64,000 bases of DNA from Prevotella sp. (GTDB taxonomy: Bacteria; Bacteroidota; Bacteroidia; Bacteroidales; Bacteroidaceae), in NCBI GenBank assembly GCA_017474925.1, contig JAFVGN010000060.1, forward strand, positions 16,802-80,801. Reading direction: 5' to 3'. Positions 3,278 to 45,494 of the stretch are shown in pieces. Position numbers and translations under genes: made by a program. Positions within the stretch are counted from its first letter, which is position 1. Every line of letters begins with the position of its first letter. The notes beneath the pieces are model-generated. The model did no database searches and had not been told where the DNA came from. It was given only the letters and a program-made list of their open reading frames with translations.

Positions 3278-3309
3278 CTTTCTATTGGTTAGGTTTGAAT
3301 AAGCGGTTG

Positions 3310-3317
3310 CAAAGGTA
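3310..3317 (-). promoter_or_regulatory. -7 element for the DASS transporter gene
   Basis: TACCTTTG on the minus strand, 33 bases before the chosen start at 3277. No clear TTTG box is seen at the expected distance. The presence of this element downstream of the alternative start at 3439 supports the shorter protein. Confidence 0.55.
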
Positions 3318-3501
3318 GTCATTTCCTTCGAACTACAGGGGCTTCTGCACCTGTTTTTTGACGCCCATGAATGCAAAAATGCCTGATAGTCATTTCTTGA
3401 CGATAACACTCTTCGCTCTTTGCAAAGTCGATGTTGCAAAATGCCTGCCTTCTCTTGTCACCTCATCCTGCATCGGCAAAAGACTTTTGTAGCGCTGAAA
3501 T

Positions 3502-3532
3502 TTTGCAGAGTGGGGAATAATTTGTACCTTTG
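3502..3532 (+). promoter_or_regulatory. Promoter of the secreted phosphoesterase gene
   Basis: TTTG (3502-3505) and TACCTTTG (3525-3532) with a 19-base spacer. The 333-base interval 3278-3610 holds only this promoter and the divergent transporter promoter; I see no small gene in it. Confidence 0.7.
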
Positions 3533-3610
3533 CAGCCGACAGCGTGTCCTTGCTTCTCTCCTGGGAAGGGTCGGGCATGTTAAAAACAAGTAAAATCTGA
3601 AATACTAATT

Positions 3611-5098: not shown

Positions 5099-5147
5099 TA
5101 TTTCTGCCGGCAGAACATTCCTCGTTCCTCATTCCTCGTAAAAAAAA

Positions 5148-8162: not shown

Positions 8163-8180
8163 CATAAAACAAAATATCAG

Positions 8181-8216
8181 ATAAGGGCCGGGTATGATGC
8201 AATACTCGGCCCTTAT
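8181..8216 (+). terminator. Intrinsic terminator-like hairpin
   Basis: ATAAGGGCCGGGTAT (8181-8195) pairs with ATACTCGGCCCTTAT (8202-8216) with one G-T pair and a 6-base loop, followed by TTGG. It lies 18 bases after the PEP/pyruvate-binding gene stop. Confidence 0.7.
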
Positions 8217-8265
8217 TTGGCAATAAGGCTTGGTTATTGTAGGATAAGGGAGGGTTATTGAAAAA

Positions 8266-8321
8266 TACTCCAAGAGTAATTTCAATTACTCCGAAAGTAA
8301 TTTTAATTATTCCGAAAGAAA
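8266..8321. repeat. Three palindromic units in a 21-base tandem array
   Basis: Cores TACTCCAAGAGTAA (8266), TACTCCGAAAGTAA (8287) and TATTCCGAAAGAAA (8308) repeat at exactly 21-base spacing. Each core is an imperfect inverted repeat. A second locus at 54922 uses the same period with another sequence. The rest of the gap 8163-8422 holds a terminator and a promoter. Confidence 0.65.
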
Positions 8322-8366
8322 TGGCAGCTTTTCCTAAAACTTTGTTATGCGATTTGCATTATTTAA

Positions 8367-8398
8367 TTTGCATAATTGCGATAATTGTTGTATCTTTG
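8367..8398 (+). promoter_or_regulatory. Promoter of the AAA+ ATPase gene
   Basis: TTTG (8367-8370) and TATCTTTG (8391-8398), spacer 20 bases, 24 bases before the ATG at 8423. Confidence 0.75.
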
Positions 8399-8422
8399 CA
8401 CCAGATTTAGAAGGGAAAAAAG

Positions 8423-28578: not shown

Positions 28579-29565
28579 CTATTTTTTACCCAAAACGTAA
28601 AGTCTGATGTACTTGCTATTGGATAGGAATTTTATGAATATCAGGCAAAGCCCTGTTATCGCTACCGTATAGAGCATTGATACAAGGTGAACTGTCGGCA
28701 TATTGAGCCCATCGAACCATTCTGGCCGGGGCTGGAATTGAGGCAGGAAGAAATAATCTATCAAGTAGATGGCTAATGAGTTCTGCCCAATTAAGTTAAT
28801 CAGCGAGTTGAACTTTGTCTGAGTCTGAAAACTATTCTCATGACAGACAAAGAACGAGACAATGGCAAAGGTGGCGAAGTATCGCAGGGCGACATCGCGT
28901 AGGAAATGATGGAGCACTGACGGCATGTCGTAAGTCAACAGAAAAAGCACAATAAAGTAAAATATCAGGAATGTTGCCTTAAACACCTCGTTGTGCATCA
29001 GTGATTCATATTTTGGACGGAATTTCATCGCCAGTGTTCCTAAGACAAAGAATTGGAAGAACTTGGTCACCCGTCGCAGGTCGAAGATTGCTGGTCCGAA
29101 GTCCTTGTCGATAGCCAACATTCCGATGCCCGCTACTGAAAGAGCCAACAGCACGCCAATTCTCCATTTCTCGTTCTTGATGACCAGTGTAATCAGATAA
29201 TAAACAAGGAAACATTCAAACAAAACAATTGTAAACCAATAGCCATGCATACCTCCTGTAATAAAACTGAAGAGACTTTTTTGATTCATCAGATCCGTTG
29301 CGACACGGAACACCAGTGCGGGGATGACGAGGAATACAAATTTTTTACGGATGTTGACCCAAGCATCTTTGATGCTCATGCTTTGCTTATAAGCCAAGAA
29401 ACCGCTTACAAAGAAGAACAAAGGCATCACGGGTGCATACATCATCTGTGATGCTAAGTTCTCGTATGGTTTGAATCCGTTTACGGCCATTATATGAAGG
29501 TCTATGACCAGCAGTATAGCCAGACATTTCAGAGCATCAAGATAAGCGATTCTTTTCTTTTCCAT
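28579..29565 (-). CDS. Membrane acyltransferase family 3, tandem copy A
   Basis: A 328-residue membrane protein starting MEKKRIAYLDALKCLAI with the catalytic His in VIDLHIM and the FFFVSGFLAYK block. These are standard acyltransferase-3 signatures as in WcjL and related capsule enzymes. It is a close paralog of the next gene; long stretches such as KNEKWRI, DKDFGPAIFDLRR and FKFxxFKFLSNSKYIR-like ends are shared. Eleven bases separate them. Confidence 0.85.
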   Translation of the reverse strand: MEKKRIAYLDALKCLAILLVIDLHIMAVNGFKPYENLASQMMYAPVMPLFFFVSGFLAYKQSMSIKDAWVNIRKKFVFLVIPALVFRVATDLMNQKSLFSFITGGMHGYWFTIVLFECFLVYYLITLVIKNEKWRIGVLLALSVAGIGMLAIDKDFGPAIFDLRRVTKFFQFFVLGTLAMKFRPKYESLMHNEVFKATFLIFYFIVLFLLTYDMPSVLHHFLRDVALRYFATFAIVSFFVCHENSFQTQTKFNSLINLIGQNSLAIYLIDYFFLPQFQPRPEWFDGLNMPTVHLVSMLYTVAITGLCLIFIKFLSNSKYIRLYVLGKK

Positions 29566-29576
29566 TTCTAACTTTT

Positions 29577-30566
29577 TTATTTGTGCCCTAAAGCATATTT
29601 CCTAATGTATTTGCTATTAGAAAGAAACTTAATGAATACCAAGCATAAACCAGTTATTGCTATGGTATAGAGTATTGATACAAGGTGAACGGTCACCATG
29701 TTAAGCCCAGCAAACCACTCAGGCAATGGACGGAAATGAGGCAGGAAGAAATAATGAATTAAGTAGATTGCCAATGAGTTCTGTCCTATGTGGTTAATGA
29801 TAGAGTTAACTTTTGATTCCTGCTGAAAATAGTCAGCATGACAGGCAAAGAATGATATAACTGCAAAAGTTCCCCAATAGCGTAATACCACATCTCGCAT
29901 GAAGTGATATAATGCTACAGGGTTAATGTCATAACTTGTGAGAAACAACACAATGAAAAATAAAAGTAACACAGTAGCCTTTATAATTTCGTTATTTATC
30001 AACAACTCATATTTGGGTCTAAATTTCATGGCCAATGTTCCCAACACAAAGAACTGGAAATATTTGGTAAGCCGTCGAAGATCGAAAATCGCTGGCCCGA
30101 AGTCCTTGTCAATAGCAAGAATTCCGATACCCGCCATCGAAAGGCTCAATAGCACGCAAATTCTCCACTTCTCGTTCTTGATGGCTAGTGTAATCAGATA
30201 GTAAACAAGAAAACATTCAAACAGAACCACTGTGAACCAATAATCACTCATACCGTCGGTCAAGAAATGGAGTGGGGCATAGTGCTTCATAAGGTCCATA
30301 CAAAGTCGGAACACGACAGCAGGAATAACAAGAAACACGAATTTCTTGCGTATGTTGCTAAATACCTCCTTGACACTCATGCTTACACGGTAAGCCAAAA
30401 AACCGCTTACAAAGAAAAAGATAGGTAAGGCAAATGAATAAATCATAAGTGCTGATAGTGAACCGTAAGGCTTAAAGCCATTGCCACTTCTCACGTGCCA
30501 ATCTATTACCATCAAAATTCCCAGACATTTCAGAGCATCAAGGTATGCAATTCTTTTCTTCTCCAT
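29577..30566 (-). CDS. Membrane acyltransferase family 3, tandem copy B
   Basis: A 329-residue paralog of copy A, aligned almost without gaps over its full length and sharing identical blocks at the start (MEKKRIAYLDALKCL), middle (DKDFGPAIFDLRR) and end (FIKFLSNSKYIR). Differences cluster in the loop segments, for example SGNGFKPYGSL against AVNGFKPYENL, which suggests different acceptor or acyl specificity rather than a useless duplicate. It carries the His in IDWHVR and the FFFVSGFLAYR block. Confidence 0.85.
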   Translation of the reverse strand: MEKKRIAYLDALKCLGILMVIDWHVRSGNGFKPYGSLSALMIYSFALPIFFFVSGFLAYRVSMSVKEVFSNIRKKFVFLVIPAVVFRLCMDLMKHYAPLHFLTDGMSDYWFTVVLFECFLVYYLITLAIKNEKWRICVLLSLSMAGIGILAIDKDFGPAIFDLRRLTKYFQFFVLGTLAMKFRPKYELLINNEIIKATVLLLFFIVLFLTSYDINPVALYHFMRDVVLRYWGTFAVISFFACHADYFQQESKVNSIINHIGQNSLAIYLIHYFFLPHFRPLPEWFAGLNMVTVHLVSILYTIAITGLCLVFIKFLSNSKYIRKYALGHK

Positions 30567-32537: not shown

Positions 32538-33647
32538 CTATTGGGCATTAATAAATCGTACACTGCTTGATATCACGGCAAGTATCATCATTATCAAGAA
32601 CTGCTTCTTTGTGAAATAACGCTGGTAATAACCGTAGGCTGTCAGGAGCGCCAATGGAATCATCGTAATATACATAACACGATAGGCATATATGCTTCTT
32701 AGTCCAAACACAACCATAAAAGCCACAGAAGCCATCAGAATTCCATAGGTTATCCGATATATTCCAATGACAGAATTGGGAACTCTTTTTCTCCAAAAGA
32801 TTTTCATTAAAAGATAAAACGGATAAAAGTATTTGAGATAACCGATAATTGTACTTATTCGTATCGCCCCTTGCCCCTTGTCGCTAAATTCTTCTATCTT
32901 TGAAGAGATGTCGTCATTATCAAACATTTCATCTAGGAACTGAAGATTGGAACTGACGAAATAAATGGCAATAATAGCAAAGAGTAGCAAAAATATGGAA
33001 ATAAATGAAAAACTTTTTCTTTCGAAAGGAATGGAAAGACAAGGCAATATAACAATACCTATGAGCAACTCACGATGAAAATAAAACGAAGACAATGCAA
33101 TTCCGATACCCAACAGTTTAAATATCTTTCCATTGTGAAGCAGAAAAAATGCGATTCCAAAGAAATAGATTGCCATTGCCAAAGAAGCACGGGCATAGCA
33201 AAAAGTACCGGCATTAAAAACGAACAATAGCAGTAAAGTAAAGCCTGGCAATAATAGCCCTCGATACATTCGGAATGAATAATAAGCTATAAAGACGGCT
33301 CCTCCCCATACTATCAGGCGAAACACTTCGAAAGGATAGTCGAAAGGCAAACTTCGGCAAAAGAGAACAGTATAGATATAAAACTTCTCTTTTGCCCAAA
33401 AGTCGATATTTGTCACATGTAGCCATTCCCGATACCTGAAATAGTCTGGGTTGATGCAATAGAATACGGCATACAAAGCAAAGAAGACAGCGAACAAGCC
33501 TGTGACCTCCTTCTGCTGTTTGAACTTAGGTGTCGATAATAGCGTCTTCCATACAGCATAGACGAAAACTGTCATATAGAGCCCCCAATACAGAACTCTA
33601 ATCCAATAAGGTATGGAGAATTCGTCAAAACTGTAGAAGTACTTCAT
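32538..33647 (-). CDS. EpsG-like polysaccharide polymerase (Wzy role)
   Basis: A 369-residue membrane protein with about eleven hydrophobic segments. The DYFRYREWLHV region followed by a large loop and the FHRELLIGI segment fit the EpsG/Wzy-like polymerase family. It is AT-rich and poorly conserved, as these enzymes are. It is the only polymerase candidate in a locus that also has a Wzx flippase, which supports a Wzx/Wzy-type pathway. It acts in the inner membrane, joining repeat units on the periplasmic side. Confidence 0.75.
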   Translation of the reverse strand: MKYFYSFDEFSIPYWIRVLYWGLYMTVFVYAVWKTLLSTPKFKQQKEVTGLFAVFFALYAVFYCINPDYFRYREWLHVTNIDFWAKEKFYIYTVLFCRSLPFDYPFEVFRLIVWGGAVFIAYYSFRMYRGLLLPGFTLLLLFVFNAGTFCYARASLAMAIYFFGIAFFLLHNGKIFKLLGIGIALSSFYFHRELLIGIVILPCLSIPFERKSFSFISIFLLLFAIIAIYFVSSNLQFLDEMFDNDDISSKIEEFSDKGQGAIRISTIIGYLKYFYPFYLLMKIFWRKRVPNSVIGIYRITYGILMASVAFMVVFGLRSIYAYRVMYITMIPLALLTAYGYYQRYFTKKQFLIMMILAVISSSVRFINAQ

Positions 33648-33673
33648 TTCTTATACTTTGGCGTTTTAACTTA

Positions 33674-34573
33674 CTAAATACTAATATGACTCCCCCAGAT
33701 CTCATCCCATTCATCAGGAGAGAATAGCCCAAAACCACTTGCCGTAAAAAAAGTAAGTTCACCGAAATACACTCTGGAATTTACTTCGTAAAAATCGACT
33801 CGGAGGTGTGGATGCCCTTTGGCGAGTTTTGCTGCCAATAAGCGCATCGTTTCAAACGTCTGTGGTTTTATAGGCAAATTCTCTGCAAATGGCACTTTTT
33901 TTCGGGTGAATGGCAGATGTGACCACTCCATGTCAAAAAAGTCAGCTCTCATCTCGTCCCAGCGGTTTGAGTAAACGCCGCAGTATAACGGTTTGCCGTT
34001 GAAACAAAAGAACTTGTAGTCCTTTATCCCTCCCTCTCCCGATTCAGGATCAGAAAGGAATACCTCGGCTATCACTCTGGGCTGCACATCCTTGTATGGC
34101 CATTCCTTAAATCGCTTGTACGCGTCTTGTTTCATAGCCTTACCCAGACGTTTCACAACATCGTTTCGATCAAGTTTGGCTTTGTTGTGGCAAATGATTA
34201 CTCCTTTACCGCCACCACCGATGGTGGTCTTCAAAACAAACTGCCGGGGCAGGTCGTCCCAGACGATTTCTTCCGGACTGTTCCATATGCCCAAGGTGGG
34301 GATGACATATTCTTGTCCAATGATGTCAGCCACATAGTCTTTTACAGCATACTTATCAACCATAGTGGAGTACTCGGGCTTGCGGTCATACAGTTTCAAC
34401 CATTGCAACTTCTCGTTGAAAGTTATAGGGTGTTTCAGATGCAATCTCTTTCCCGTTTGGAAATAGTACATCAACTTGAGGTAGAGGGAATCTGAGAAAA
34501 GATTACCGAAATGGTACAAAAACGACTTGCCAATGGCTCGCGGTTCTTGAATATAGTATGTGAAAGCTTGCAT
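33674..34573 (-). CDS. TupA-like ATP-grasp protein
   Basis: A 299-residue protein of the TupA-like ATP-grasp family, named for a teichuronopeptide synthesis protein. Visible: HPITFNEKLQWLKLYD, the switch VDKYAVKDYV, the nucleotide loop VLKTTIGGGGKGV and a metal site in RVDFYEVNSRVYFGELTF. Such enzymes likely form an amide or ester bond between a sugar acid and an amino acid at the expense of ATP. It is one of three ATP-grasp proteins in this operon. The acceptor and the amino acid are not known. Confidence 0.82.
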   Translation of the reverse strand: MQAFTYYIQEPRAIGKSFLYHFGNLFSDSLYLKLMYYFQTGKRLHLKHPITFNEKLQWLKLYDRKPEYSTMVDKYAVKDYVADIIGQEYVIPTLGIWNSPEEIVWDDLPRQFVLKTTIGGGGKGVIICHNKAKLDRNDVVKRLGKAMKQDAYKRFKEWPYKDVQPRVIAEVFLSDPESGEGGIKDYKFFCFNGKPLYCGVYSNRWDEMRADFFDMEWSHLPFTRKKVPFAENLPIKPQTFETMRLLAAKLAKGHPHLRVDFYEVNSRVYFGELTFFTASGFGLFSPDEWDEIWGSHISI

Positions 34574-34580
34574 CCTTATT

Positions 34581-35741
34581 TTATCGTTTAAGCTCTGTTA
34601 TGATTCTTTGAGCTATAGTCTCAGAGGCATGTCCACTTTCACTTGTTCCATAAAACTGAAGAACCTTCTTGTTGATATGCTTATGGTCATAGGTATCTAT
34701 TCTCTTTAATATATCATTCAGCTCTTGCTGGTTCCCTGCCACAAGGTATCCGGCCTTTTCTGGATCTACCCAGAGCAAGCGGTTTTTCGATTCATAACTT
34801 TCTTTGTCGAAATGAGCAAGAATTAAGGGCTTTCCTGTCAGGAGAAAATCTCCAGCGCAACTGCTATAGTCTGTAATAAGCAAATCTGTTACTAATAGTA
34901 AATCTGCCATATCAGGATAGTCCGACACATTCCGACACACTGCCTCTTTCTGTGTTACTTTGAGCTGTTTTGTAAGCGAGTGAGAACGGATCAGGCATAT
35001 CCACTTATTCCCATTGGTTTCCAGACTGGCAATAGTCTGACTGATGTCTATCTGGCATTGGAGCTCGTCACCAGCCTCTCTGTATGTGGGTGCATATAGC
35101 AGAATGTTTGTGTTGCTGTCTATACCTAAACGCTTTCTTATCTCGGCAGCTTCCTCCTTGTAGGCCTGAAGGTTCGTCAACTTATCGTTCCGAGGCATTC
35201 CTGCCGTCATTACCTCACCCTCGTATCTTAGCCCTTTGTGGGCTTTCATGACACCATAGTCAGAAGCAGCGATAAACAGGTCGCAGTCGGACATCAAATA
35301 GCCATTTCTATTTTTAGCCTTTTTTCTCTTCTTCCTGCTTAGTTCATCAGCATATCCTATTGTCTTTAGGCCTCGGTCGCCATGCCACGTCTGGATATAA
35401 AACTGGTTGGGGCTTTTGTAAATACCAGTGTTGGGCCTGTAAACATAGTTCAGCACCCACACCTTGGCCTGTGCCTGAGCCTTCAATGCCAAACGGAGGG
35501 TTGGCGGAACAACTGTGACATAGTCGGGCACATATTTCTTGAACTGGGGCTTTACGAGCCAAACTATCTTCACGTCGGGAGCCATCTTATGCAGGCACTC
35601 ACTGATTGCACGGGGATTGTCGGAGTATTGTCCCCTGAACGAGGCAAAGAAAACGCTCTTGACATCCCGTGGCCGTGTTGCATAGCACAGATACATATAG
35701 GCCTTTCTGATCCATTTCTTGATGATGACAGTTTTCTTCAT
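34581..35741 (-). CDS. CDP-glycerol glycerophosphotransferase (TagB/TagF-like)
   Basis: A 386-residue peripheral membrane enzyme of the family that adds glycerol-phosphate from CDP-glycerol to a lipid-linked acceptor. Key blocks are FASFRGQYSDNPRAISECL, the catalytic region QTWHGDRGLKTIG, LLYAPTYREAG and TDLLITDYSSCAGDFLLTGKPLIL. The His in TWHGD and the Asp/Ser in ITDYSS match known active-site positions. The next gene upstream makes the CDP-glycerol donor. It could be a primase (TagB, one unit) or polymerase (TagF); the short length without an extra domain favours the primase or a single addition per repeat. Confidence 0.88.
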   Translation of the reverse strand: MKKTVIIKKWIRKAYMYLCYATRPRDVKSVFFASFRGQYSDNPRAISECLHKMAPDVKIVWLVKPQFKKYVPDYVTVVPPTLRLALKAQAQAKVWVLNYVYRPNTGIYKSPNQFYIQTWHGDRGLKTIGYADELSRKKRKKAKNRNGYLMSDCDLFIAASDYGVMKAHKGLRYEGEVMTAGMPRNDKLTNLQAYKEEAAEIRKRLGIDSNTNILLYAPTYREAGDELQCQIDISQTIASLETNGNKWICLIRSHSLTKQLKVTQKEAVCRNVSDYPDMADLLLVTDLLITDYSSCAGDFLLTGKPLILAHFDKESYESKNRLLWVDPEKAGYLVAGNQQELNDILKRIDTYDHKHINKKVLQFYGTSESGHASETIAQRIITELKR

Positions 35742-35744
35742 GCT

Positions 35745-36173
35745 TCAATCTATAATCTTTTTGTTTTCCATTTCCCGCAGGAGCGAGGAACTTACGCCAT
35801 TGGTGTGTTGCAGATAGACCACCTCGGCTCCTAATGGCTGCAGGTCTCGCTCCGTCTGTAGCCAACGCTCGTTACCCTTCCAGTCGCTGCCGATGAATAC
35901 GGCATCAAAATGCAGCTGCTGCCATGCATCGGTCTTGCTCAGCGTGTCGCATAGCACCACCTTGTCTACACACCGCATTTCACCAATAATAGCAGCACGG
36001 TCATGCTCATTGACTACAGGCTTCTTGTGCTTGTATTCGTTTACCAGCTGGTCGGTATTCACTCCGACAATCAGGCTGTCACACAACTCGCTTGCCTGAT
36101 GGAGGAGGTTCAGGTGTCCGATGTGGAACATATCAAATGTTCCCTGCGTATATCCTATCTTGTATTTTTTCAT
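35745..36173 (-). CDS. tagD: Glycerol-3-phosphate cytidylyltransferase
   Basis: A 142-residue cytoplasmic enzyme forming CDP-glycerol from CTP and glycerol-3-phosphate. It has GTFDMFHIGH (11-20, the nucleotidyltransferase HxGH), GSDWKGNERW (95-104, the TagD-specific block) and a C-terminal SSSLLR (128-133). It is coupled to the following transferase with three bases between. Its start overlaps the stop of a 41-codon acyltransferase relic by ATGA. A broken copy of its 5' end lies at 37490-37575. Confidence 0.9.
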   Translation of the reverse strand: MKKYKIGYTQGTFDMFHIGHLNLLHQASELCDSLIVGVNTDQLVNEYKHKKPVVNEHDRAAIIGEMRCVDKVVLCDTLSKTDAWQQLHFDAVFIGSDWKGNERWLQTERDLQPLGAEVVYLQHTNGVSSSLLREMENKKIID

Positions 36174-36295
36174 TTGGTCTGTTTATATTTGTCAGGTATC
36201 TCCTCAGGCCGCTTAGGACGTACCAGATTCAAACCTTTTACCACGCTATGTGAGAGAACATCCTTGGTAACGAAGGCGCAGGCCTCGGTGTTCAT
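36170..36295 (-). pseudogene. 3'-end relic of a hexapeptide acyltransferase
   Basis: An ATG-started frame of 41 codons reading NTEACAFVTKDVLSHSVVKG and then LNLVRPKRP, ending in TGA. The first part matches the end of hexapeptide acyltransferases (GAxAxVTKDVPxxSVVxGxPA); compare CALVTKDV in the intact gene at 25839. The upstream two thirds of such a protein are missing. The stop overlaps the tagD start (ATGA), so the fragment may still be translated and keep tagD coupled. Confidence 0.65.
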
Positions 36296-36317
36296 TTTCT
36301 TTATTCACTATTTTACT

Positions 36318-37457
36318 TTAAACTTTGAACTTTGCTTGCAACGCAACACTCTTGTTGCGACGGCAATAGTCTATCACTTCATCGGTATATTTACCAAAAA
36401 CTTCTTGGTTAGTGTACATATATGCGCTATAGCTGAATCCGTTAATATTATATTCTATGAGTACAGGTTTCCCATTTTCATTCAGTGCGATATCAAGAGC
36501 TATTAATCGATGATGATGAATGCTTGATCCTATGTATTTGGAGAATGAGATCACGTCATTCCAATGAGGAACGGTAAAGACATTCTTAGAATAATCAATT
36601 CCATTCCAAGAGTCTTGTTTGTTTCCGTATTGATCAACAACATACTTTCCCAATTCGCCAGTTGCAACATCAATGCCAACACGCATCCCCCCAGCATGTA
36701 TGTTATCTACAAATGAGCCATCTTTTCCTATTCTGATTATACCAGCAGTAACTACGGATTCTTCGTTGGCAACTGAACGATAGAGGCAAAGCCGCATGGT
36801 ATTTACAGACGTAGGACATAGCTTTTTCATAAAACTATGTTGGGTTATCATTTCTTGTAAGCAGAAATCTTTCTGATACGATAGCAGGAAGGCTTTTGAC
36901 AAAGTAATATCCCCCCTAACGGAAACGAAATCCTTACCTTTCTTTTCAAATTTCATGATACCTCTTCCAGAACTTGAATTGACAGAGGGCTTTAATATTA
37001 AACTTGTTGCGTTGCCAATATATTTTGAGAGGTCATCACTTGCATTCTTATATTCAGCATCAAGCAAATTGCTTCCATTAATCCTACAAACGATGGTACG
37101 GGCGACATGCTCTTTCCCAACAATCTCTGGAAATAAATTTTTGTCCGAATAAGTCGGACGGTATTCTATCGGATTAAGAACGGGTTCAATGAAAGAACGG
37201 CCGATGTCTTCAGGAACGATATTCGGATTATTTCCACAAAAATGACTAAAGAATCGATAGGAATAGGGTTCGACACGAGGACATAGGACTTCCCATTTCT
37301 TCATGTAGAGATCCTCACCTATGGCTTTCTTGTTTTCGAAATGCTGTTGTTTCAGATAGCATTTATATTGATTTGAATAGCGTCGATATCTGCGATAGTG
37401 CCTTACAGAGACAAAGGCCCCCATGACACATGATTTTATACTTGAAATTATACTCAT
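36318..37457 (-). CDS. Sugar-transfer-associated ATP-grasp protein
   Basis: A 379-residue protein of the ATP-grasp group found near capsule glycosyltransferases. A basic N-terminus (HYRRYRRYSNQYK) is followed by the ATP-binding strand LILKPSVNSSSGRGIMKF, SVNTMRLCLYRS, GGMRVGIDVATGE and the metal-binding end LIALDIALNENGKPVLIEYNINGFS. It probably ligates an amino or carboxylic group to the glycan; the substrate is not known. The gene is AT-rich and lies between two relics, a tagD 5' end on its upstream side and an acyltransferase 3' end downstream, which marks it as a recent insertion. Confidence 0.78.
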   Translation of the reverse strand: MSIISSIKSCVMGAFVSVRHYRRYRRYSNQYKCYLKQQHFENKKAIGEDLYMKKWEVLCPRVEPYSYRFFSHFCGNNPNIVPEDIGRSFIEPVLNPIEYRPTYSDKNLFPEIVGKEHVARTIVCRINGSNLLDAEYKNASDDLSKYIGNATSLILKPSVNSSSGRGIMKFEKKGKDFVSVRGDITLSKAFLLSYQKDFCLQEMITQHSFMKKLCPTSVNTMRLCLYRSVANEESVVTAGIIRIGKDGSFVDNIHAGGMRVGIDVATGELGKYVVDQYGNKQDSWNGIDYSKNVFTVPHWNDVISFSKYIGSSIHHHRLIALDIALNENGKPVLIEYNINGFSYSAYMYTNQEVFGKYTDEVIDYCRRNKSVALQAKFKV

Positions 37458-37489
37458 CTTAACTTGTTGGTTGAATTGCGCTTGATTTT

Positions 37490-37575
37490 CTTGCCTGATG
37501 GAGCAAGTTCAAGTGACCGATGTGTAACATATCGAAAATGCCTTACGTGGAGCCTATCTTATGCGTCTTCTTCAT
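37490..37575 (-). pseudogene. 5'-end relic of a tagD copy with in-frame stop
   Basis: Starting from an ATG at 37575 the minus strand reads MKKTHKIGST, then TAA, then GIFDMLHIGHLNLLHQAR. This matches the first 28 residues of the intact tagD at 36173 (GTFDMFHIGHLNLLHQAS) with the Gln codon CAG changed to TAA. Similarity stops abruptly near 37490. It begins two bases after the stop of the preceding ATP-grasp gene. Confidence 0.88.
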
Positions 37576-37576
37576 A

Positions 37577-38770
37577 TTATTTTATGCGAAAACATTTTTT
37601 TACAAATGTCATGACTCTGCGTTTTAGTGTACTCAATTTTAATTGCGAATATGGCTTGTTGTCTGTATCATCCAAAATGAATGTAACATTAGCTTTCGCC
37701 AATTCTTCTGAAAATCGGCTAAAAGTCCATTGTCCAGCGAAAACCTTTGATAGTGCAGTTTTCTCATTTATAAAATGATATTGGGGGAATGAACGTTCAA
37801 ATTCTGCCTTCGGATTTATTCCCAAAAGAGTGTTTATGAGGACTCCTGGCAGATTAATGATTGATTTAGTGATGGCATAGCCACTGGCTCCTAACCTGAG
37901 ATTGAGTTCGTTGAAATAAATCGTCCCATTGCTGACGAATAAATCTATGTCGAAAAGTCCTGTTAGGTTTATCTTTTCCATAAATGCGGTCAACTTTTCT
38001 TCAAGTCCGGGATATGACGTTATGGAACAAACAGTTCCTGTGGCAGCAACCCCCAAGAAATGTTCCTTGATGCTTATTATACCAGGAATAATGGATTTCC
38101 CATCGACAGACACTCCAAGTACGGCAATCTCTTGATCTATATCGATGAGCTCCTCTATCAAGATGTCGTCTTTGGAAATCTCTGAAATTCTTTTCAGTTG
38201 AAGTGCTAACTCGCGCTCGTTGTTACATCTTGTCATCAAGCGTTTTAGGGCTCTTTTGAAACTTTCCTTGGGCTTTATGAAACAAGGATAAGAAATGCCA
38301 TCGGGAATTATATAATTCGCCTCATCGCAATGAGCCACCCAGCCATCAGCAACTCTAAGCCCCGCGTCTTTTGCTGTTTGCTTGACCCGATACTTGTTCA
38401 TCATGCTTACCAGCTCTCCTTGTCTTCTCGACACATTGGGCATCATGAAATTTTGCGTTAGCTCGTCAAGATGCAGGTCAATCACAGAAGCAGTATAGTC
38501 ATCGGTTGGTAGAAGTATCCTCTTTTCTCCAACATTTTCTAAACTTTTGATAATATTAACCAACTTTGCATGGTCAGGCTCTTTTGCTATGAATGTTTTC
38601 AAAACATATTTGCTACTTGCGTCGATTCTACACTTAGTATTCCTTCCTGTCTGTATAACTATAACGTCACAGCCTGATTCAGCAGCTGCCCTTATCATAC
38701 CCAGTCGCGAGGCATAATTGCGCCCCATGACTATCGCTATGTGTTTGAGATTGTGCACTTTTGTCCTCAT
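37577..38770 (-). CDS. ATP-grasp ligase (carbamoyl-phosphate-synthase-like fold)
   Basis: A 397-residue protein. An N-terminal Rossmann-like part (HIAIVMGRNYASRLGMIRAAAESG) precedes an ATP-grasp domain with YPCFIKPKESF, DDILIEELIDIDQEIAVLGVSVDG and the metal site FDIDLFVSNGTIYFNELNLRLGASG. It resembles PylC/CarB-type ligases seen in polysaccharide loci. Reaction and partners are unknown, but the domain makes an acyl-phosphate intermediate to join a carboxylate to an amine. It is followed at once by the tagD relic, showing that tagD once came directly after it. Confidence 0.8.
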   Translation of the reverse strand: MRTKVHNLKHIAIVMGRNYASRLGMIRAAAESGCDVIVIQTGRNTKCRIDASSKYVLKTFIAKEPDHAKLVNIIKSLENVGEKRILLPTDDYTASVIDLHLDELTQNFMMPNVSRRQGELVSMMNKYRVKQTAKDAGLRVADGWVAHCDEANYIIPDGISYPCFIKPKESFKRALKRLMTRCNNERELALQLKRISEISKDDILIEELIDIDQEIAVLGVSVDGKSIIPGIISIKEHFLGVAATGTVCSITSYPGLEEKLTAFMEKINLTGLFDIDLFVSNGTIYFNELNLRLGASGYAITKSIINLPGVLINTLLGINPKAEFERSFPQYHFINEKTALSKVFAGQWTFSRFSEELAKANVTFILDDTDNKPYSQLKLSTLKRRVMTFVKKCFRIK

Positions 38771-38791
38771 TTGAAAGATTAAGACAAGATT

Positions 38792-39397
38792 TCAGATACC
38801 AAACCTTTTCACATGTCCAGGTTTGTATCTGAGTTTTTTATACCATTTACGAATCAGAAACTGACATTTGATATACCAGTTAGAATAAGGGCAGCCATTC
38901 AACCATTTTACCATCATAACATCATAATGGTCAGTAGAGGTTACTTTTAAATCAACAAATTTATATCCTGCTTTTTTTGCGATATCAAGTCTATGTTTAT
39001 TGTTCTCATGAGTTTCGCCGAGCATTCTTGTCAACTGCATAGATAAAGCAAGCTCTTCTCTCTTAAGATCTAAGGCTTTATAAATACCTTTACCATTGTA
39101 CTCTGGAAGGACTGAAGCAAAACAGCAATAAGCATAGTCACCCTTTCCGCACCAAAGACGACCCGCTTTTACAATTATTGCTGCTGTTCCTACGATTTTC
39201 TGCCCATCCATGGCAACAAGCATCTTTCCGTGTCCCTCAATTTTTTTCCTTATTTTCTCCCCCGGAAGTGCAGGGAATGCCATATTCATTCCTTTCTGAC
39301 GGTTCTGCTCATGTGCTTTCCATAGCACATTGTGAATCTCATCCCATGATACCCAGTCGGGCTTTTCTATGATTATTATACTTGCATCGTTTTTCAT
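38792..39397 (-). CDS. GNAT-family acyltransferase
   Basis: A 201-residue cytoplasmic protein. The acetyl-CoA loop is visible as SVLPEYNGKGIYKALDLKREELA, followed by MQLTRMLGETHENNKHRLDIAKKAGYKFVD. This is typical of N-acetyltransferases acting on sugar amines or small molecules. It ends in GHVKRFGI, nearly the same as the C-terminus of the flippase upstream (GRVKRLGI). In this setting it may acetylate an amino-sugar nucleotide or supply an acylated building block. Confidence 0.75.
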   Translation of the reverse strand: MKNDASIIIIEKPDWVSWDEIHNVLWKAHEQNRQKGMNMAFPALPGEKIRKKIEGHGKMLVAMDGQKIVGTAAIIVKAGRLWCGKGDYAYCCFASVLPEYNGKGIYKALDLKREELALSMQLTRMLGETHENNKHRLDIAKKAGYKFVDLKVTSTDHYDVMMVKWLNGCPYSNWYIKCQFLIRKWYKKLRYKPGHVKRFGI

Positions 39398-39419
39398 TAT
39401 TACCTACGAATGTTTAAAC

Positions 39420-40901
39420 TTATATACCAAGACGTTTAACCCTTCCCCCTTTTTTATGATAGATGGACACAACTATCTCTTTTATGTTTACGTAACTTTC
39501 CGGCTTGAAGACAAAAGACCAAATCAAATAAACAGAAACAAAGCAGACAAATTTTAGGATTCCATCCAAATACAATGACAAGTTAGCATACATGCCAACA
39601 AAATAGGTAACTGTAAATATAACTAATGAAACGATTAGAATTGGGAAGATATCTGCCAATTGTCTTGTCCACGTGTATCCGATATATTTGGAAACTAAAC
39701 AGATATTCACAAAATACGAAAACCATGTCGTGAAAACCAGACAGATAAGCAGTCCCTTCATTCCATAGAAATAGATGCTGCAAAACAACAGAGTGATACC
39801 AACCATACGTTTAAAAACTGTCCATTTAAACATCACCTTACTCTTCCCTATTGCGGCAATAGAATGGTTGTTAACCCCTTGTAGACAATATGCCAGACCG
39901 GACAGACACAAAAACTGGAAATAAGGGACACTATCAATCCATCTTTCAGAGTATAATAATACGAATAAAGGTTTTGCACATAGTAAAAGGATAAACATCA
40001 GCGGAAAGGTGATATACGAAAGAGAGATGGTTAACTTTCGAATAGTATCCGATAGACGAGACTTGTCATCTTGCAACTCTGCATATAGGGGATAAGTTAC
40101 CTGTGTTAGCACCTGAGAAATACTTAAAGAGGCCAATCTTTCCGTACTCTGGGCTCTTGAATAGTATCCCATTGTGGCAGGATTATAGAATTTACCGATC
40201 AAAAGCCCCTGAATCTGTCGGCCAAACTGATTCAACATATGTGTCAGAAACATGTAGAACCCAAAACTGAAAAGTTCCCTAAGTGACTGCCATGAGAAAA
40301 CTAACTGGGGACGCCACTTGACATAGAACCAGAATGCAATGGCAGGAATGGCTGCAGTCAGGATGTGTTGAGCCACCAAAGCCCACACACCAAAGCCTTG
40401 ATATGCCATCACGATGGTGACAGTCAGTGCAGTGACCGATGTAAAAATAGTTACAACGGAAAGCGTCTTGAAGTTCATCTTCTTCCGCAACTGATTGCGC
40501 TGGACAATGTTAAAAGCATAGATAAACAGGATGACTCCCTGCACCCGCAAAACATCACTAAGCAAAGGAATATCATAGAACCGTGCAATGGCAGGAGCTG
40601 AGAAATACAGAATGACATACAATAACACTGCCATTCCAAGATTCCAAAAGAATATCGTGGAATAATCTTCCTGTGTGGGACGCTTCTTCTGTATCAATGC
40701 TGAGCCGAAGCCACCGTCGATGAACGCCTCTGCCAAGACCATGAAGATCATCAACATGCCTATGCAACCATAATCATATGGAGTCAACAAACGGGCAAGA
40801 ATTATACCAGAAATGAATTGGATGAACATCGTAGAGTATTTCTGCAATGCTGTCCATATCATCCCCGATACTGTCTTCTGTTTGAGATTCTTATTTGACA
40901 T
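39420..40901 (-). CDS. wzx: Wzx-type polysaccharide flippase (MOP superfamily)
   Basis: A 493-residue inner-membrane protein with about twelve to fourteen segments. It opens with KQKTVSGMIWTALQKYSTMFIQFISGIILARLLTPYDYG and has QGLLIGKFYNPATMGYYSRAQS, both characteristic of the WzxC/TuaB branch of the multidrug/oligosaccharidyl-lipid exporters. It moves the lipid-linked repeat unit to the periplasmic face. Its start lies eleven bases inside the end of the preceding SGNH-like gene, and its first 33 bases are duplicated at the start of that gene. Confidence 0.92.
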   Translation of the reverse strand: MSNKNLKQKTVSGMIWTALQKYSTMFIQFISGIILARLLTPYDYGCIGMLMIFMVLAEAFIDGGFGSALIQKKRPTQEDYSTIFFWNLGMAVLLYVILYFSAPAIARFYDIPLLSDVLRVQGVILFIYAFNIVQRNQLRKKMNFKTLSVVTIFTSVTALTVTIVMAYQGFGVWALVAQHILTAAIPAIAFWFYVKWRPQLVFSWQSLRELFSFGFYMFLTHMLNQFGRQIQGLLIGKFYNPATMGYYSRAQSTERLASLSISQVLTQVTYPLYAELQDDKSRLSDTIRKLTISLSYITFPLMFILLLCAKPLFVLLYSERWIDSVPYFQFLCLSGLAYCLQGVNNHSIAAIGKSKVMFKWTVFKRMVGITLLFCSIYFYGMKGLLICLVFTTWFSYFVNICLVSKYIGYTWTRQLADIFPILIVSLVIFTVTYFVGMYANLSLYLDGILKFVCFVSVYLIWSFVFKPESYVNIKEIVVSIYHKKGGRVKRLGI

Positions 40902-42012
40902 TAGCTATAACTTTCTTGGTCTTACCATCACTCATACGAATCATGTTCAATCCTTTCTGAGGATGGCCTATTCTACGCCCTTGCATATCATAGACAATAG
41001 TTCTTGGCGAATCATTGACTGCACCATATACAATAGAAGTGTAATCTTCAGGATTCTGGCATTGATACATATTCTGTGTTGCCAAATAAGCAGCCTCTTG
41101 AGCTATGAGGGCATTTTCATCAGTTACATTCACTGATGGATACTTCGAGTCTTTATCAGATACATCTATACGAGCGGAATTGCCAACTACCGATATACCA
41201 CAACGCGGTGCAATGAGCGATTCATAATAGCTGCAGGCAGCCGTATATTCTGCCAGTCCATATCCGCAATGTGTCCCATCTCGTGTCAAATCATATTCAT
41301 TGTTGAGCGAACTCGACCTTAAATTCTGAATGGCAGTTCCGTATGGAATTACGAAATCTACACCATAATCTTCACAAAAGGACTTGGTAGAATTGGCTAT
41401 CAACTGCCATCGGTCATAAGAAGATTTCTCCGTGTTTTTCTCATACCCGCTCCAATAACTATGTACAAGGAGGAAACCAAGCTTTGCGTTCGGTTGATGC
41501 TCCTTGATGATAGAGATCAACTCATCCAAATAACCAGCTGCACTATTGGTGTTCCATGTTGAATAATAGGGTGCATACAAACTATACTGATGGATAATGA
41601 TTAAATCCCAAGTCTCGTTGGTCAACAAATCTCTGAATAACTTGCCATCTCCAGCTTCTCCTTCACCTGTTTGTACATTGGCTGACAGCCTACCTACGAC
41701 CTTTGTAATAGAATAGATTTTAGAGTCCTTATCATTATAAATATCAACCCAGTTCTTGAAGGAGGCTCCCCCCCGAGAGCATTGATATAGACACATCGTA
41801 CTGAGGTCGGCCTTACTCGCCTTTGCAATGAGAGGCAGAAGATGGGTCGCTCCAGCTGTATAACTATTCCCTATATCAAGAACCCTCAGTTCCGCCTTCT
41901 TTAAGACAGCATTCTCTGCAGTTACTGGCAAACTTAAAAGGATGCTAGCTATAAAACAATAGAAACACCTCATAATAGATACCGCCTTCTGTTTTTTATT
42001 CTTATTTGACAT
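40891..42012 (-). CDS. Exported SGNH-hydrolase-like protein (DUF4886 type) with tail
   Basis: A 373-residue protein with a hydrophobic signal segment (CFYCFIASILLSLPVTA) and esterase-like blocks: DIGNSYTAG (GNS in place of GDS), HQYSLYAP and DGTHCGYG with the Asp-x-x-His pair. It ends with IVYDMQGRRIGHPQKG and a basic tail like other secreted proteins here. The first 13 residues, MSNKNKKQKAVSI, copy the start of the Wzx flippase below it. The original start was probably the Met at 41973. The fused start may now supply the ribosome site. A run of seven G lies in the coding strand near 41771. It may be a capsule or glycan O-acyl esterase. Confidence 0.75.
   Translation of the reverse strand: MSNKNKKQKAVSIMRCFYCFIASILLSLPVTAENAVLKKAELRVLDIGNSYTAGATHLLPLIAKASKADLSTMCLYQCSRGGASFKNWVDIYNDKDSKIYSITKVVGRLSANVQTGEGEAGDGKLFRDLLTNETWDLIIIHQYSLYAPYYSTWNTNSAAGYLDELISIIKEHQPNAKLGFLLVHSYWSGYEKNTEKSSYDRWQLIANSTKSFCEDYGVDFVIPYGTAIQNLRSSSLNNEYDLTRDGTHCGYGLAEYTAACSYYESLIAPRCGISVVGNSARIDVSDKDSKYPSVNVTDENALIAQEAAYLATQNMYQCQNPEDYTSIVYGAVNDSPRTIVYDMQGRRIGHPQKGLNMIRMSDGKTKKVIANVK
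41973..42012 (-). repeat. Duplicated 5' end of the wzx gene
   Basis: From the ATG at 42012 the minus strand matches the wzx start at 40901: the first 15 bases are identical (ATGTCAAATAAGAAT), then AAACAGAAG and GTATC are shared. TTATAnnTAATG is shared at the upstream junction. After about 36 bases the sequences differ. The copy lies 28 bases after the UpxY stop, where wzx itself would be expected in an undisturbed locus. Confidence 0.85.
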
Positions 42013-42040
42013 TACTTATAAACGTGATTTAAACATTATT

Positions 42041-42715
42041 TCATTGTTCTATCACTTGTATAAAAGCCGTTGGAATATAGGCCGTAGAAACAAGTCCGAC
42101 TTGGGACAATGTTAATACAACCCGCTGCTGGCCTGAAACCCGGGCAACCCTTCCTTCGACACCCTTGAATGCTCCATCTTTTATCCTCACTAACTCTCCG
42201 CCTTTGAAATGACATCGTGATTCATCAACGAACTTCAGATGTTCACTTTTGTTGCATGTGGCAATGATGAAATTCTCCATCTCCTTACAGGAGACAGTCA
42301 ATGGGGGATTCTTCAGGGTTACGCTTTGTTCAAAATGATTGTAATAATAGGTAAGGTATGAGAGGGCTGGCGTGTTCTTCACATACTCATCTGCCTTGTC
42401 CTCGGTGGTATATACAAAAAGGAGGTTAGGGATAAGTGTCTCCAGAACCTTCTTTTGCTTGCCATTTACCGACTTGCGCGCATATCTTTTTGCTATATAG
42501 ACAAACGTGCCATCTTCAACAATGTAATCAGCTGCCTTGTCTTCTCGTCCGTATGATGCCCGGAAAACATACCAGTTTTTATCTTTGTCATGTACATATC
42601 TTACCGACACCCCTGTCTTTGAGCTCTTGGCTTCGGGGATGGTATCAGGGGTAAGCCTGACACATGGAGGATTAGCCTCGCCTCGTCGAGTTTCCACATT
42701 AGACAATGTGCTCAT
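42041..42715 (-). CDS. upxY: UpxY-family transcription antiterminator (NusG-like)
   Basis: A 224-residue NusG paralog that lets RNA polymerase read through the long capsule operon. The NGN-like domain has NWYVFRASYGREDKAADYI, LIPNLLFVYTT and YLTYYYNHF; the C-terminal KOW part has GGELVRIKDGAFKGVEGRVARVSGQQRVVL. It is the first gene of the operon, as in Bacteroides capsule loci. I use the ATG at 42715. An in-frame GTG at 42769 would add 18 residues that are not typical of the family. No UpxZ inhibitor gene follows it. Confidence 0.9.
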   Translation of the reverse strand: MSTLSNVETRRGEANPPCVRLTPDTIPEAKSSKTGVSVRYVHDKDKNWYVFRASYGREDKAADYIVEDGTFVYIAKRYARKSVNGKQKKVLETLIPNLLFVYTTEDKADEYVKNTPALSYLTYYYNHFEQSVTLKNPPLTVSCKEMENFIIATCNKSEHLKFVDESRCHFKGGELVRIKDGAFKGVEGRVARVSGQQRVVLTLSQVGLVSTAYIPTAFIQVIEQ

Positions 42716-42825
42716 ATCGGACCATCTCGCGTTTTGGTCGACGCTCGGCTCGATGCTTGATGTAAACACTTATTGTACACATCCGACGTTTGTACCCAAA
42801 GGCTCACATCTTCGAGAATCGGCTG

Positions 42826-42833
42826 CAAAAGTA
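42826..42833 (-). promoter_or_regulatory. -7 element of the capsule operon
   Basis: TACTTTTG on the minus strand, giving a leader of roughly 100 bases to the UpxY ATG. I see no clear -33 TTTG and no pair of inverted repeats flanking the promoter, so there is no sign of an invertible switch as in Bacteroides capsules. Confidence 0.55.
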
Positions 42834-42915
42834 CAAAAAAAAAAGGAATTATATGCCCTTTTAGACGAAAAAACATAAAATTGCCTTTTCTTGGTGAATA
42901 TTTACCATCAGATGG

Positions 42916-42938
42916 GATATACTTAATAGAAGTATATC
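42916..42938. repeat. 9-bp inverted repeat before the capsule promoter
   Basis: GATATACTT (42916-42924) and AAGTATATC (42930-42938) around AATAG. It follows the DUF4831 gene and precedes the capsule promoter by about 80 bases. Weak as a terminator because no T-run follows; could be a binding site. Confidence 0.45.
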
Positions 42939-42968
42939 TTTATAGGTTGTATATAGCAGATATTATAT

Positions 42969-43973
42969 TTACGGGTGGCAGGAGATGACAGCTCCTGTGG
43001 CGGGATGGAGTTGCAGGGACATGTTGTAGCGCTTGAAAAGGCTGGCCTCCCGAAGCTCAACGAAACCGAACTGCGCCATGGGAATCTGGAAGGTTGCCAA
43101 TGGGAGGTCTTCCTGTTGGAGTGTTAGTTCTGCAGTGCCTGGTACGTTGGCATAAAGTCCCTCGCCCTTTTTGTTTTCAGGCAAGGGAATGTCATCGACT
43201 GGATGCAGGCTACGGAGCGTTATATAATAAGGTATACCAGAAAGGTCGTCCTTGTCGACCAGTCCCAAACGGCGTGAGAGACGGAAGGCGACTTCGCGTT
43301 CAAGCTCCTTCACGGGACAAAGGGTTACGACGTGTACGAGTGTGTCGCACAGGGTGATTCCTGTGAAGAGGCTAGTCAGTGCCTGACACTGGCTGTCGAG
43401 CTCGTTCAGCATCAGCTGGAGCTGTCGCTCGTCCTGGGGCATGTTGTCTGCCTCTCCGGTAGCTAAAAGCTGGCGGCGCTCACGGAGATCGGTAATCTGC
43501 TGTGCCGTCAGTTCCGCCATCTTGGCTTTGCTGCCTGCTGCCAGTACTTCAGCAGAGAGACTGGCCACCCGTGGAGAGCGTGACGCTTTGGGGGAACTGG
43601 CCGAAGAAACCAGCGAGGAACGGGCTGGCGCCAGTGGATCTGCATTGATGGACAAGAGCACCCCGTCATCGCTGAGACGAATGTCGGCCGCCTCGCTCTT
43701 GCCTTTCAGGTGGAGGGTGAAGCACTTGGTGGTGTCGCGCATGCCGATGGTGGTGATGTCGCAACCGATGATACGGTGAGTGGCATGAGATTCCTGACTG
43801 ACTCCCGCCACGTGCAGGTATTTGTCAGCGTAACGGGCAAACTCGCCCGGAGTATAGCTTTTTTTCTCGACCAACAGGTGGATTTGCAGAACCGTCTTGG
43901 GCAGATAGTAGGTCTGTGCCCGTAAGGGAAGGATGCCCAGAATGGAAAAAAGCAGGATAAACCGTGTTTTCAT
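42969..43973 (-). CDS. Exported DUF4831-type protein
   Basis: A 334-residue protein with a short signal peptide (MKTRFILLFSILGILPLRAQ, cleavage after RAQ) followed by TYYLPKTVLQIHLLVEKKSYTPGEFARYADKYL, the typical beginning of the DUF4831 family of Bacteroidetes. The middle (115-190) is low-complexity, Ala/Ser-rich and predicted to be helical. The function is unknown in the family. It lies 6 bases after nnrD on the same strand, so the two are cotranscribed. Confidence 0.8.
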   Translation of the reverse strand: MKTRFILLFSILGILPLRAQTYYLPKTVLQIHLLVEKKSYTPGEFARYADKYLHVAGVSQESHATHRIIGCDITTIGMRDTTKCFTLHLKGKSEAADIRLSDDGVLLSINADPLAPARSSLVSSASSPKASRSPRVASLSAEVLAAGSKAKMAELTAQQITDLRERRQLLATGEADNMPQDERQLQLMLNELDSQCQALTSLFTGITLCDTLVHVVTLCPVKELEREVAFRLSRRLGLVDKDDLSGIPYYITLRSLHPVDDIPLPENKKGEGLYANVPGTAELTLQQEDLPLATFQIPMAQFGFVELREASLFKRYNMSLQLHPATGAVISCHP

Positions 43974-43979
43974 ACGTAC

Positions 43980-45494
43980 TTACTCTTTAAGTCTTTGGTA
44001 GGCCTTGGGCAGGTAATGAATGATGTCGCTGGCTATGAGGCTCTCTTCGCCCAGGTCGTGTGCTGCCAGGTCGCCAGCCAGTCCATGCAGGTAAACGCCC
44101 AGAATGCAGGCCTCTTGTGGCTTGTAGCCCCGTGCCAGCAGACCCGTAAGGATGCCTGTCAGCACGTCGCCGCTTCCGGCTGTCGCCATGCCGCCATTGC
44201 CGGTAGAATTGAACAGAATCTGCCCGTTGGGTGTACAAATGGCCGTATAATGGCCTTTCAGAATGACATATCCCTTCAATCGCATGGCCATGTTGCGGGC
44301 CTTGGTAAGCCGCTCGTAACTATCGGCAGCATGTCCTTCAATACGGTCGAACTCCTTGGGATGAGGCGTGAGGATGATGCCCTGGGGCAGTTGTTGGACC
44401 CAGGCGGGGTGATTGCTGAGGATGTTCAGGGCATCGGCATCGGCCACGATGGGACACTGTGTACGTCGCAGCTGGGCTATCAGGGCGATAGCCGTCTGCT
44501 CGCTTTGTCCGATGCCCGGTCCGATGCCCAAGGCATTGAAATATTCCGTATCGACAGCCTCTGCAAAGATGGTCTCCTCGTTGCCGTTCTGGATGATGGC
44601 CTCTGGTACCGCAGTCTGCAGGATGGCTATGTTGCGCTTGGGAGAATTGACGGTGACCTTACCGGCTCCGGCACGCAGACAAGCCTTCGTTGCAAGGATG
44701 GCAGCACCAGCCATGCCATAGCTGCCGGCTATGAGCAAGGCGTGTCCCATCTGTCCCTTATGGGCGAAAGGACTGCGCGGCAGCAGCAATTGGCGTACCT
44801 CGCTCTCCTCGACGATGCTGTAGGCGGTGTCCAACTGGTTGATGCCTTCCTGGCTTAGCCGGATGTCAAGGATGCGCAGTTGTCCGATGAACTGCTGATT
44901 CTCGGGGAAAAGGAAAGAGAGCTTGGGCTGCTGCAGGGTCAGCGTATAGTTGGCGCGGATGATGTTGGCGCGGATGTTATAGGAATTATCCTCGGTCATC
45001 AATCCTGAAGGTACATCGATGCTGACAACCTGTGCCGGTGAGGCATTGATGTACTTGACCAGCGAGGCAAAGCCGCCCGCCAAGGGTTTGCTGATGCCCG
45101 AACCGAAAAGCCCGTCGATTACCACCATGTCGTTTTTCAATGCGGGAGGATCGAACTCGTCGACCACTTCGACGAAACTGTGGATGTGCTTGCACTCCTG
45201 CAACCGTGTCTTGTTGGCTACGCAGTCAGGGGAGAGCTTGTTGCTGATGTTGAAAAGATAGACGCTGACCTGATAGTCCTTCTCTGCCAGCATCCGGGCC
45301 ACGGCCAGTGCGTCGCCGCCATTGTTGCCGTGACCAGCAAAGACAACGACGGGCGTCGTCGGGGTATATAATTTCGTGAAGGCCTGAGTCAAGGCCCTGG
45401 CCGCACGCTCCATGAGATCGAGACTGGGAATGGGCTCGTTTTCAATGGTAAATTTGTCCAGCTCATGTATCTGAGCACTTGTAAATATCTTCAT
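43980..45494 (-). CDS. nnrD: Bifunctional NAD(P)HX epimerase / ADP-dependent NAD(P)HX dehydratase
   Basis: A 504-residue repair enzyme. The N-terminal YjeF_N half (1-215) epimerises R-NAD(P)HX, with VVVFAGHGNNGGDALAVARML and VVIDGLFGSGISKPL. The C-terminal YjeF_C half (230-504) dehydrates S-NAD(P)HX using ADP, with the end motif GNGGMATAGSGDVLTGILTGLLARG. The fusion is the usual form in bacteria. It is divergent from hpt with a 94-base gap containing -7 boxes for both directions. Confidence 0.95.
   Translation of the reverse strand: MKIFTSAQIHELDKFTIENEPIPSLDLMERAARALTQAFTKLYTPTTPVVVFAGHGNNGGDALAVARMLAEKDYQVSVYLFNISNKLSPDCVANKTRLQECKHIHSFVEVVDEFDPPALKNDMVVIDGLFGSGISKPLAGGFASLVKYINASPAQVVSIDVPSGLMTEDNSYNIRANIIRANYTLTLQQPKLSFLFPENQQFIGQLRILDIRLSQEGINQLDTAYSIVEESEVRQLLLPRSPFAHKGQMGHALLIAGSYGMAGAAILATKACLRAGAGKVTVNSPKRNIAILQTAVPEAIIQNGNEETIFAEAVDTEYFNALGIGPGIGQSEQTAIALIAQLRRTQCPIVADADALNILSNHPAWVQQLPQGIILTPHPKEFDRIEGHAADSYERLTKARNMAMRLKGYVILKGHYTAICTPNGQILFNSTGNGGMATAGSGDVLTGILTGLLARGYKPQEACILGVYLHGLAGDLAAHDLGEESLIASDIIHYLPKAYQRLKE

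Follow-up and report, generated by a model that had tools for sequence, protein, structure and literature searches.

Gene-end stubs in a Prevotella capsule operon as probable scars of mosaic recombination

We analysed a 64,000-nt stretch of DNA (hereafter the window; G000:C19:16802-80801) from a Prevotella sp. genome assembly (GCA_017474925.1) that is 64% complete, focusing on a capsule operon on the minus strand in which the starts of two genes, wzx and tagD, each occur twice. Read in the direction of transcription, the operon consists of UpxY, a DUF4886 gene, wzx, a GNAT gene, an ATP-grasp gene, a tagD stub, a second ATP-grasp gene of the sugar-transfer-associated kind (ATPgrasp_ST), a remnant of a hexapeptide acetyltransferase gene (AcT), the intact tagD, and a glycerophosphotransferase gene (Table 1). 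At both sites, other coding sequence lies between the repeated gene start and the intact gene, and the origin of this arrangement is the subject of our analysis.

At the first site, the start of wzx (40910-40867) is repeated at 42021-41978 over 44 nt with 84% identity. The local alignment score of this match is 53, while 200 shuffles reached 30 at most, and the order described in the original prediction, in which a 5' copy of wzx, an inserted gene, and the intact wzx follow one another, is therefore real. The inserted gene encodes a DUF4886 protein, which we take to be SGNH-like. Its best five matches from other genomes start at window residues 11-20, which indicates that ~13 codons at the head of the open reading frame (ORF) belong to the wzx stub and that Met14 is probably the native start. 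A syntenic relative, locus L063 of genome G295, has no DUF4886 gene between UpxY and wzx. The 3' end of the DUF4886 gene (40888-40953) also matches a different contig of this genome (G000:C65) at 79%, which may reflect a shared C-terminal tail.

At the second site, the start of tagD (36161-36091) is repeated at 37560-37490 over 71 nt with 80% identity (score 74; the shuffles were run for site 1 only). The stub begins 1 nt past the stop codon of the ATP-grasp gene and carries one in-frame codon more than the intact tagD, which suggests that it comes from another allele. Between ATPgrasp_ST and the intact tagD lies a remnant of AcT (36283-36170) whose protein is 92% identical to the AcT of L063; the match begins abruptly at 36283, and the 5' 435 nt of the gene are missing in comparison with L063. 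Two truncated genes, the 5' end of tagD and the 3' end of AcT, thus flank the site, with a joint that lacks extended homology; of the two sites, only this one gave signs of such a joint and of sequence loss. The repeat proposed earlier for this site stands, including its in-frame TAA, but the proposed gene order was incomplete, as the AcT remnant before tagD had been missed. The further suggestion that the tagD site is the older and the wzx site the younger of the two is not supported, the stubs being about equally diverged (80% and 84%).

Close relatives of the operon place the second site in context. A wzx search of 299 genomes of the genus listed 12 matches, each at least 53% identical, the window's own included. 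We also collected 27 named loci, 24 of which are close wzx relatives (56-75%) from records of Prevotellaceae and other Bacteroidetes, several of goat, yak, buffalo, or deer origin according to their titles. Two operon types are found among these relatives. In L063 the order is UpxY-wzx-AcT-tagD-glycerophosphotransferase with no inserts, and among the 24 close loci wzx, AcT, and tagD are likewise adjacent in L286 (the same contig as L063), L290, L293, and L303. In L297, by contrast, the order is wzx-GNAT-ATPgrasp-tagD, with a 4-nt overlap of ATP-grasp and tagD, and L064 (G150) has wzx-AcT-GNAT-ATPgrasp-tagD. GNAT genes are in tandem in L296. In L285, inserted genes separate wzx from AcT and AcT from tagD, and no stub was seen at either insertion. 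Because the tagD stub of the window starts 1 nt after the ATP-grasp stop codon, and because GNAT, ATP-grasp, and tagD follow one another in L297 and L064, the "copy" is best read as the start of the other operon type's own tagD, lying in its native position. Taken together with the AcT 3' remnant, these operon types lead us to read site 2 as a putative splice between an L297-like part on the left and an L063-like part on the right, where a truncated gene flanks the junction on either side. The L063 operon is colinear with the window downstream except for the window genes at 33674-34573 and 29577-30566, which have no L063 counterpart. Its tagD is 91% identical to that of the window and its UpxY only 47%, so UpxY, too, has been exchanged.

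Two further places in these loci may bear traces of joints. The last codons of the window wzx (GRVKRLGI) resemble the tails of GNAT proteins, with 23/27 nt identical to a GNAT remnant in L064. No tail of this type was found in the 7 other wzx aligned, and there was no nucleotide match between the wzx tail and the window's own GNAT tail. This is no more than suggestive of an in-frame scar between wzx and GNAT, which would be a third joint. In L064, the gap before GNAT contains 25 nt of the tagD start followed by pieces of GNAT that lack the 5' part and have an internal deletion; we had considered this gap to be a wzx 3' remnant, which was rejected because the sequence there is the GNAT remnant.

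Table 1. Features of the capsule operon in the window, in order of transcription.
Feature	Position	Strand	Evidence
UpxY/NusG-like antiterminator gene, operon head	42041..42769	-	Pfam NusG 7.4e-8
wzx 5' stub: 9 nt leader and ~12 codons, in-frame fusion to DUF4886 gene	41978..42021	-	44 nt, 84% to 40867-40910
DUF4886 gene between UpxY and wzx	40891..42012	-	Pfam PF16227 4.3e-27
Intact wzx flippase gene	39420..40901	-	Pfam PF13440 8.2e-93; 71% to L063
wzx last codons, GNAT-like tail (GRVKRLGI), probable in-frame scar	39420..39446	-	23/27 nt identical to L064 GNAT remnant tail
GNAT acyltransferase gene, GNAT-ATPgrasp-tagD module	38792..39397	-	Pfam PF00583 7.6e-9; order as in L064, L297
ATP-grasp gene, GNAT-ATPgrasp-tagD module	37577..38770	-	Pfam PF02222 3.1e-8
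tagD 5' stub, in-frame TAA at stub codon 11	37489..37575	-	Repeat match; module order in L064, L297
Sugar-transfer-associated ATP-grasp gene (ATPgrasp_ST), flanked by two truncated genes	36318..37457	-	Pfam PF14397 3.3e-37
Hexapeptide acetyltransferase (AcT) 3' remnant, last 37 codons	36170..36283	-	Overlaps tagD by 4 nt as in L063
Intact tagD	35745..36173	-	Pfam PF01467 1.6e-21; 91% to L063

Part of the UpxY-like gene (42561-42639) has an 84% match on contig G000:C14 of the same genome, perhaps a second antiterminator gene. Further downstream in the window, 28579-30566 holds two adjacent paralogous genes (328 and 329 aa) whose starts are 85% identical; both are matched in L290 and only one in L063.

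Our survey of gene-end stubs covered 1.84 Mb in 100 regions with 1316 co-directional gaps. Almost all of these regions were centred on capsule genes, and 91 of them hold a wzx-like gene (window excluded). A further 20 regions (194 gaps) served as a control. Each gap was compared with the genes of the same region at a threshold of at least 40 bits, and rows due to paralogues and adjacent genes were removed by rule. The capsule regions gave 8 same-strand matches at 5' ends, 2 at 3' ends, 3 in leaders, and 3 internal, with 2, 1, 0, and 1, respectively, in antisense, while the control gave one same-strand 5' match (L241, 25 nt, A-rich) and two antisense leader matches. We dropped by hand the 5' rows of L204 (26 nt around the start, weak, two rows for one pair), L209 (intergenic, with the gene concerned upstream), and L225 (a simple repeat). 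Three loci with 5' stubs were left: L064, whose tagD stub had been found ahead of the survey; L178, with 131 nt of a PglD/NeuD-like gene at 85%; and L206 (two rows), with stubs of wzx and of a glycosyltransferase start. Remnants of 3' ends occur in L078 and L172. In the 27 named loci, where 319 gaps were compared on the plus strand only, there were further 5' stubs in L299 (wzx) and L303 (a piece spanning the 3' end of wzx and the 5' end of AcT), and that of L064 was met again in L289. In all, 5' stubs are present in 5 of ~125 other regions, that is, the 100 regions and the 27 named loci without L286 and L289 (the latter on the same contig as L064), with L308 and L309 being distant records. 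The signature therefore reappears at a frequency of a few per cent, insertions need not carry a stub, and remnants of both gene ends occur. Duplicated 5' ends had been expected in other capsule loci, and this held for their recurrence but not for enrichment over the control (8/1316 gaps vs 1/194). Stubs of wzx cannot be called common, as a profile scan of ATG starts in 121 sources, 92 with a wzx-like gene (L299 not included), identified clear 5' stubs of wzx in L206 and the window alone, along with many chance-level matches of similar score.

Several stubs lie beside genes with defence-like domains. The richest case, from one genome, is L206 (G303:C3:87000-106999), where five wzx starts (MAEQSLK or close, at 2730, 3066, 5937, 7250, and 9189) are found within 6.5 kb of one capsule operon (2730-9216). 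KwaA is fused in frame to the second of these starts and followed by KwaB (Kiwa), and an ATPase matching PDC-M29A comes after the fourth. The DUF4886 gene of the window is likewise an in-frame fusion to a wzx stub. In L178 (G167:C15:45000-64999, 1597-4705), the stub is followed by three called genes, one with a ThsB-TIR-like domain, and then by the intact PglD/NeuD-like gene. A repeated leader and wzx start in L299 (CAMJRR010000004.1, 5457-8056) surround small genes, one with a SocA-Panacea antitoxin domain, and a gene for a YhcG-type nuclease in L303 (CADCDP010000010.1, 6513-7953) lies upstream of wzx between 24-nt identical repeats. Heptamer repeats are also present near the repeated leader and wzx starts of L299; an AACTCTA-type heptamer was rejected as a border motif, since it occurred in 0/100 capsule regions, 0/20 control regions, and 3/24 close wzx loci, and not at all in the window. 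The 88 genes that lie immediately upstream of wzx matched 27 PADLOC families, and the 25 of these that were listed have one member each (23 PDC-S02 models, PDC-S46, and PD_DExK); the 90 genes immediately downstream matched none. On the upstream side, capsule and sugar enzymes are the commonest Pfam families among the matches listed (25 of 67 families), and a general role of the wzx start as a defence-gene hotspot, for which support was weak, was not upheld. We are quite doubtful that capsule gene starts, and wzx above all, are recurrent entry points that accrete defence, toxin-antitoxin, and other cargo, where each entry would add a gene start that can supply the cargo's translation start and operons would become defence islands with a readable insertion history.

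The five wzx starts of L206, with KwaA-KwaB and the PDC-M29A-like ATPase among the genes between them, might be taken to indicate a site-specific cassette system that acts in trans and uses the starts of wzx and similar genes as its attachment site. However, stub lengths vary from ~25 to 130 nt, and the shared motif that had been anticipated at the repeat borders, or an integron-like core site, was not seen at 10 borders examined by eye. The two window sites also involve two different anchor genes and L178 a third, and the confinement of clear wzx 5' stubs to L206 and the window in the profile scan is a further point against such a system. Neither a recombinase nor a transposase gene was found among the 10 window proteins scanned against Pfam, and the 4 inverted repeats of at least 20 nt in 33000-45000 do not bracket the inserts as those of a transposon or insertion sequence would. 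We regard a dedicated cassette system as extremely improbable.

In our view, the repeats are probably scars left where a mosaic capsule operon was joined, produced by recombination between loci that share an anchor gene, with homology at just one of the two sides. DNA arriving from a different capsule locus would carry its own wzx or tagD, with one joint to the resident operon formed by homology in that gene and the other formed without extended homology. Because adjoining genes abut or overlap, joints at which the upstream gene is spared and a single functional copy of the anchor gene is kept would tend to fall inside the latter, and the 5' stub of the other allele would therefore come to precede the new gene. 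Mirror-image joints would leave 3' remnants. The one-sided homology and the direction of transfer are what we infer from these scars, and we extend the same explanation to site 1. The process is most likely a known kind of mosaic recombination that needs no new mechanism. The proposed common way of adding cassettes to capsule operons is partly supported as a recurring pattern but not as a new insertion system.

The original prediction knew of no named system that acts in this way, yet a named process, homology-facilitated illegitimate recombination (HFIR), resembles the pattern, if only in part. HFIR is described from laboratory transfer (PMC3240628), whereas here it would be read from scars, and the outcome here includes a repeated gene start. 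A candidate for an anchor linked to the insert is seen in L064 and L297, where the GNAT-ATPgrasp module is followed by tagD, with no such donor found for site 1; an illegitimate joint that truncates genes is seen at site 2 and in L064, where the tagD stub is joined to the GNAT remnant. Further features of HFIR are a few bases of microhomology at that joint and the deletion of adjoining recipient DNA; the 5' 435 nt of AcT missing at site 2 may reflect such a deletion. The closest published model that we found concerns the type VI secretion system (T6SS) of Vibrio cholerae, in which effector-immunity modules are displaced serially at one locus and for which the authors propose a mechanism akin to HFIR (PMC5361080). 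There too, repeated module insertion leaves remnants of earlier genes, but these are old immunity genes kept downstream rather than short 5' and 3' stubs of capsule genes. In transformation-induced merodiploids of Streptococcus pneumoniae, uptake of partly repeated fragments leads to duplications by alternative pairing; most of these are in tandem, ~100-900 kb long, and have insertion-sequence repeats at their borders (PMC3784515), compared with stubs of 25-130 nt here. Titles and the beginnings of abstracts on capsule and O-antigen loci contained no description of the signature in Prevotella, most subscription journals being outside the scope of this search; a Salmonella O-antigen paper mentions a gene remnant (PMC3715488).

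A different origin for the stubs would be duplication of the resident gene start during insertion, in which cargo enters through short homology at the start of the anchor gene, either because the template is switched there or because a circle or a repeat-bearing fragment integrates, and the duplicated start then decays. The two origins can be compared by the positions at which stubs differ from intact genes, and we simulated each pair 2000 times under a neutral copy and under a model in which half of the changes fell on the selected gene. Differences were at wobble positions in 13/19 cases for the window tagD, 10/13 for L178, 7/7 for the L206 starts at 2730 and 3066, and 3/6 for the window wzx stub. 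A neutral fresh copy was rejected for the first three (P <=0.0005) and for the window wzx stub (P 0.036), and the half-selected model was also rejected for the L206 pair (P 0.0075). By this measure, several stubs appear to be too diverged at wobble positions for fresh copies. In addition, the native module order accounts for the window tagD stub, and the second truncated genes at the joints of site 2 and L064 also count against duplication.

Several results nevertheless weigh against recombination between capsule loci, and several of them favour duplication of the gene start. The half-selected model was not rejected for the window tagD (P 0.48), the window wzx stub (P 0.60), or L178 (P 0.22), so an old in-place duplication may underlie these pairs, and 4/10 of the nine-codon comparisons within the set of five L206 copies (not independent of one another) did not reject a neutral copy at 0.05 (P 0.07 to 0.56). 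In a control comparison of two intact tagD genes, 12/13 differences were at wobble positions, a stronger bias than that of the tagD stub. Some stubs look like copies: that of L064 is 25/25 identical to the locus's own tagD start, and that of L299 combines ~60 nt of non-coding leader with 64 nt of wzx, is 89% identical overall, and contains frame-breaking indels. The MAEQSLKDK pattern occurs without mismatch three times in the L206 genome and has no counterpart in the other 387 of the 388 genomes searched, which could mean copying within the locus. The 24-nt repeat flanking the YhcG-like gene of L303, at 100% identity, also favours duplication. No donor locus was found for site 1, and the raw 5' rate in capsule regions is not enriched over the small control. 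Classical HFIR, moreover, gives an insertion with a deletion and not a duplicated gene start. Even so, we consider duplication during insertion to be unlikely.

The remnants of several genes that line the gaps, among them the piece of wzx 3' end and AcT 5' end kept before wzx in L303, and the internal deletion in the GNAT remnant of L064, could also point to erosion, in which the operon gained a second, complete set of genes next to the old one and later lost all of the old anchor gene but its first codons. Blastx of the gaps adjoining the 5' stubs in L206, L178, and L299 found no later piece of the same wzx or NeuD, although very short pieces would escape it and the 27-nt L206 stubs were below its detection. 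The wzx stubs seen are also all short, with ~27-64 nt of coding sequence out of ~1450 nt. Erosion is in our judgement distinctly unlikely, and recombination between capsule loci that share an anchor gene remains the explanation that we favour.

If this is correct, the gene-end stubs constitute a readable record of the rebuilding of capsule operons. A count of them could reveal which genes act as anchors, in what order cassettes arrived, and whether capsule loci also collect defence genes.

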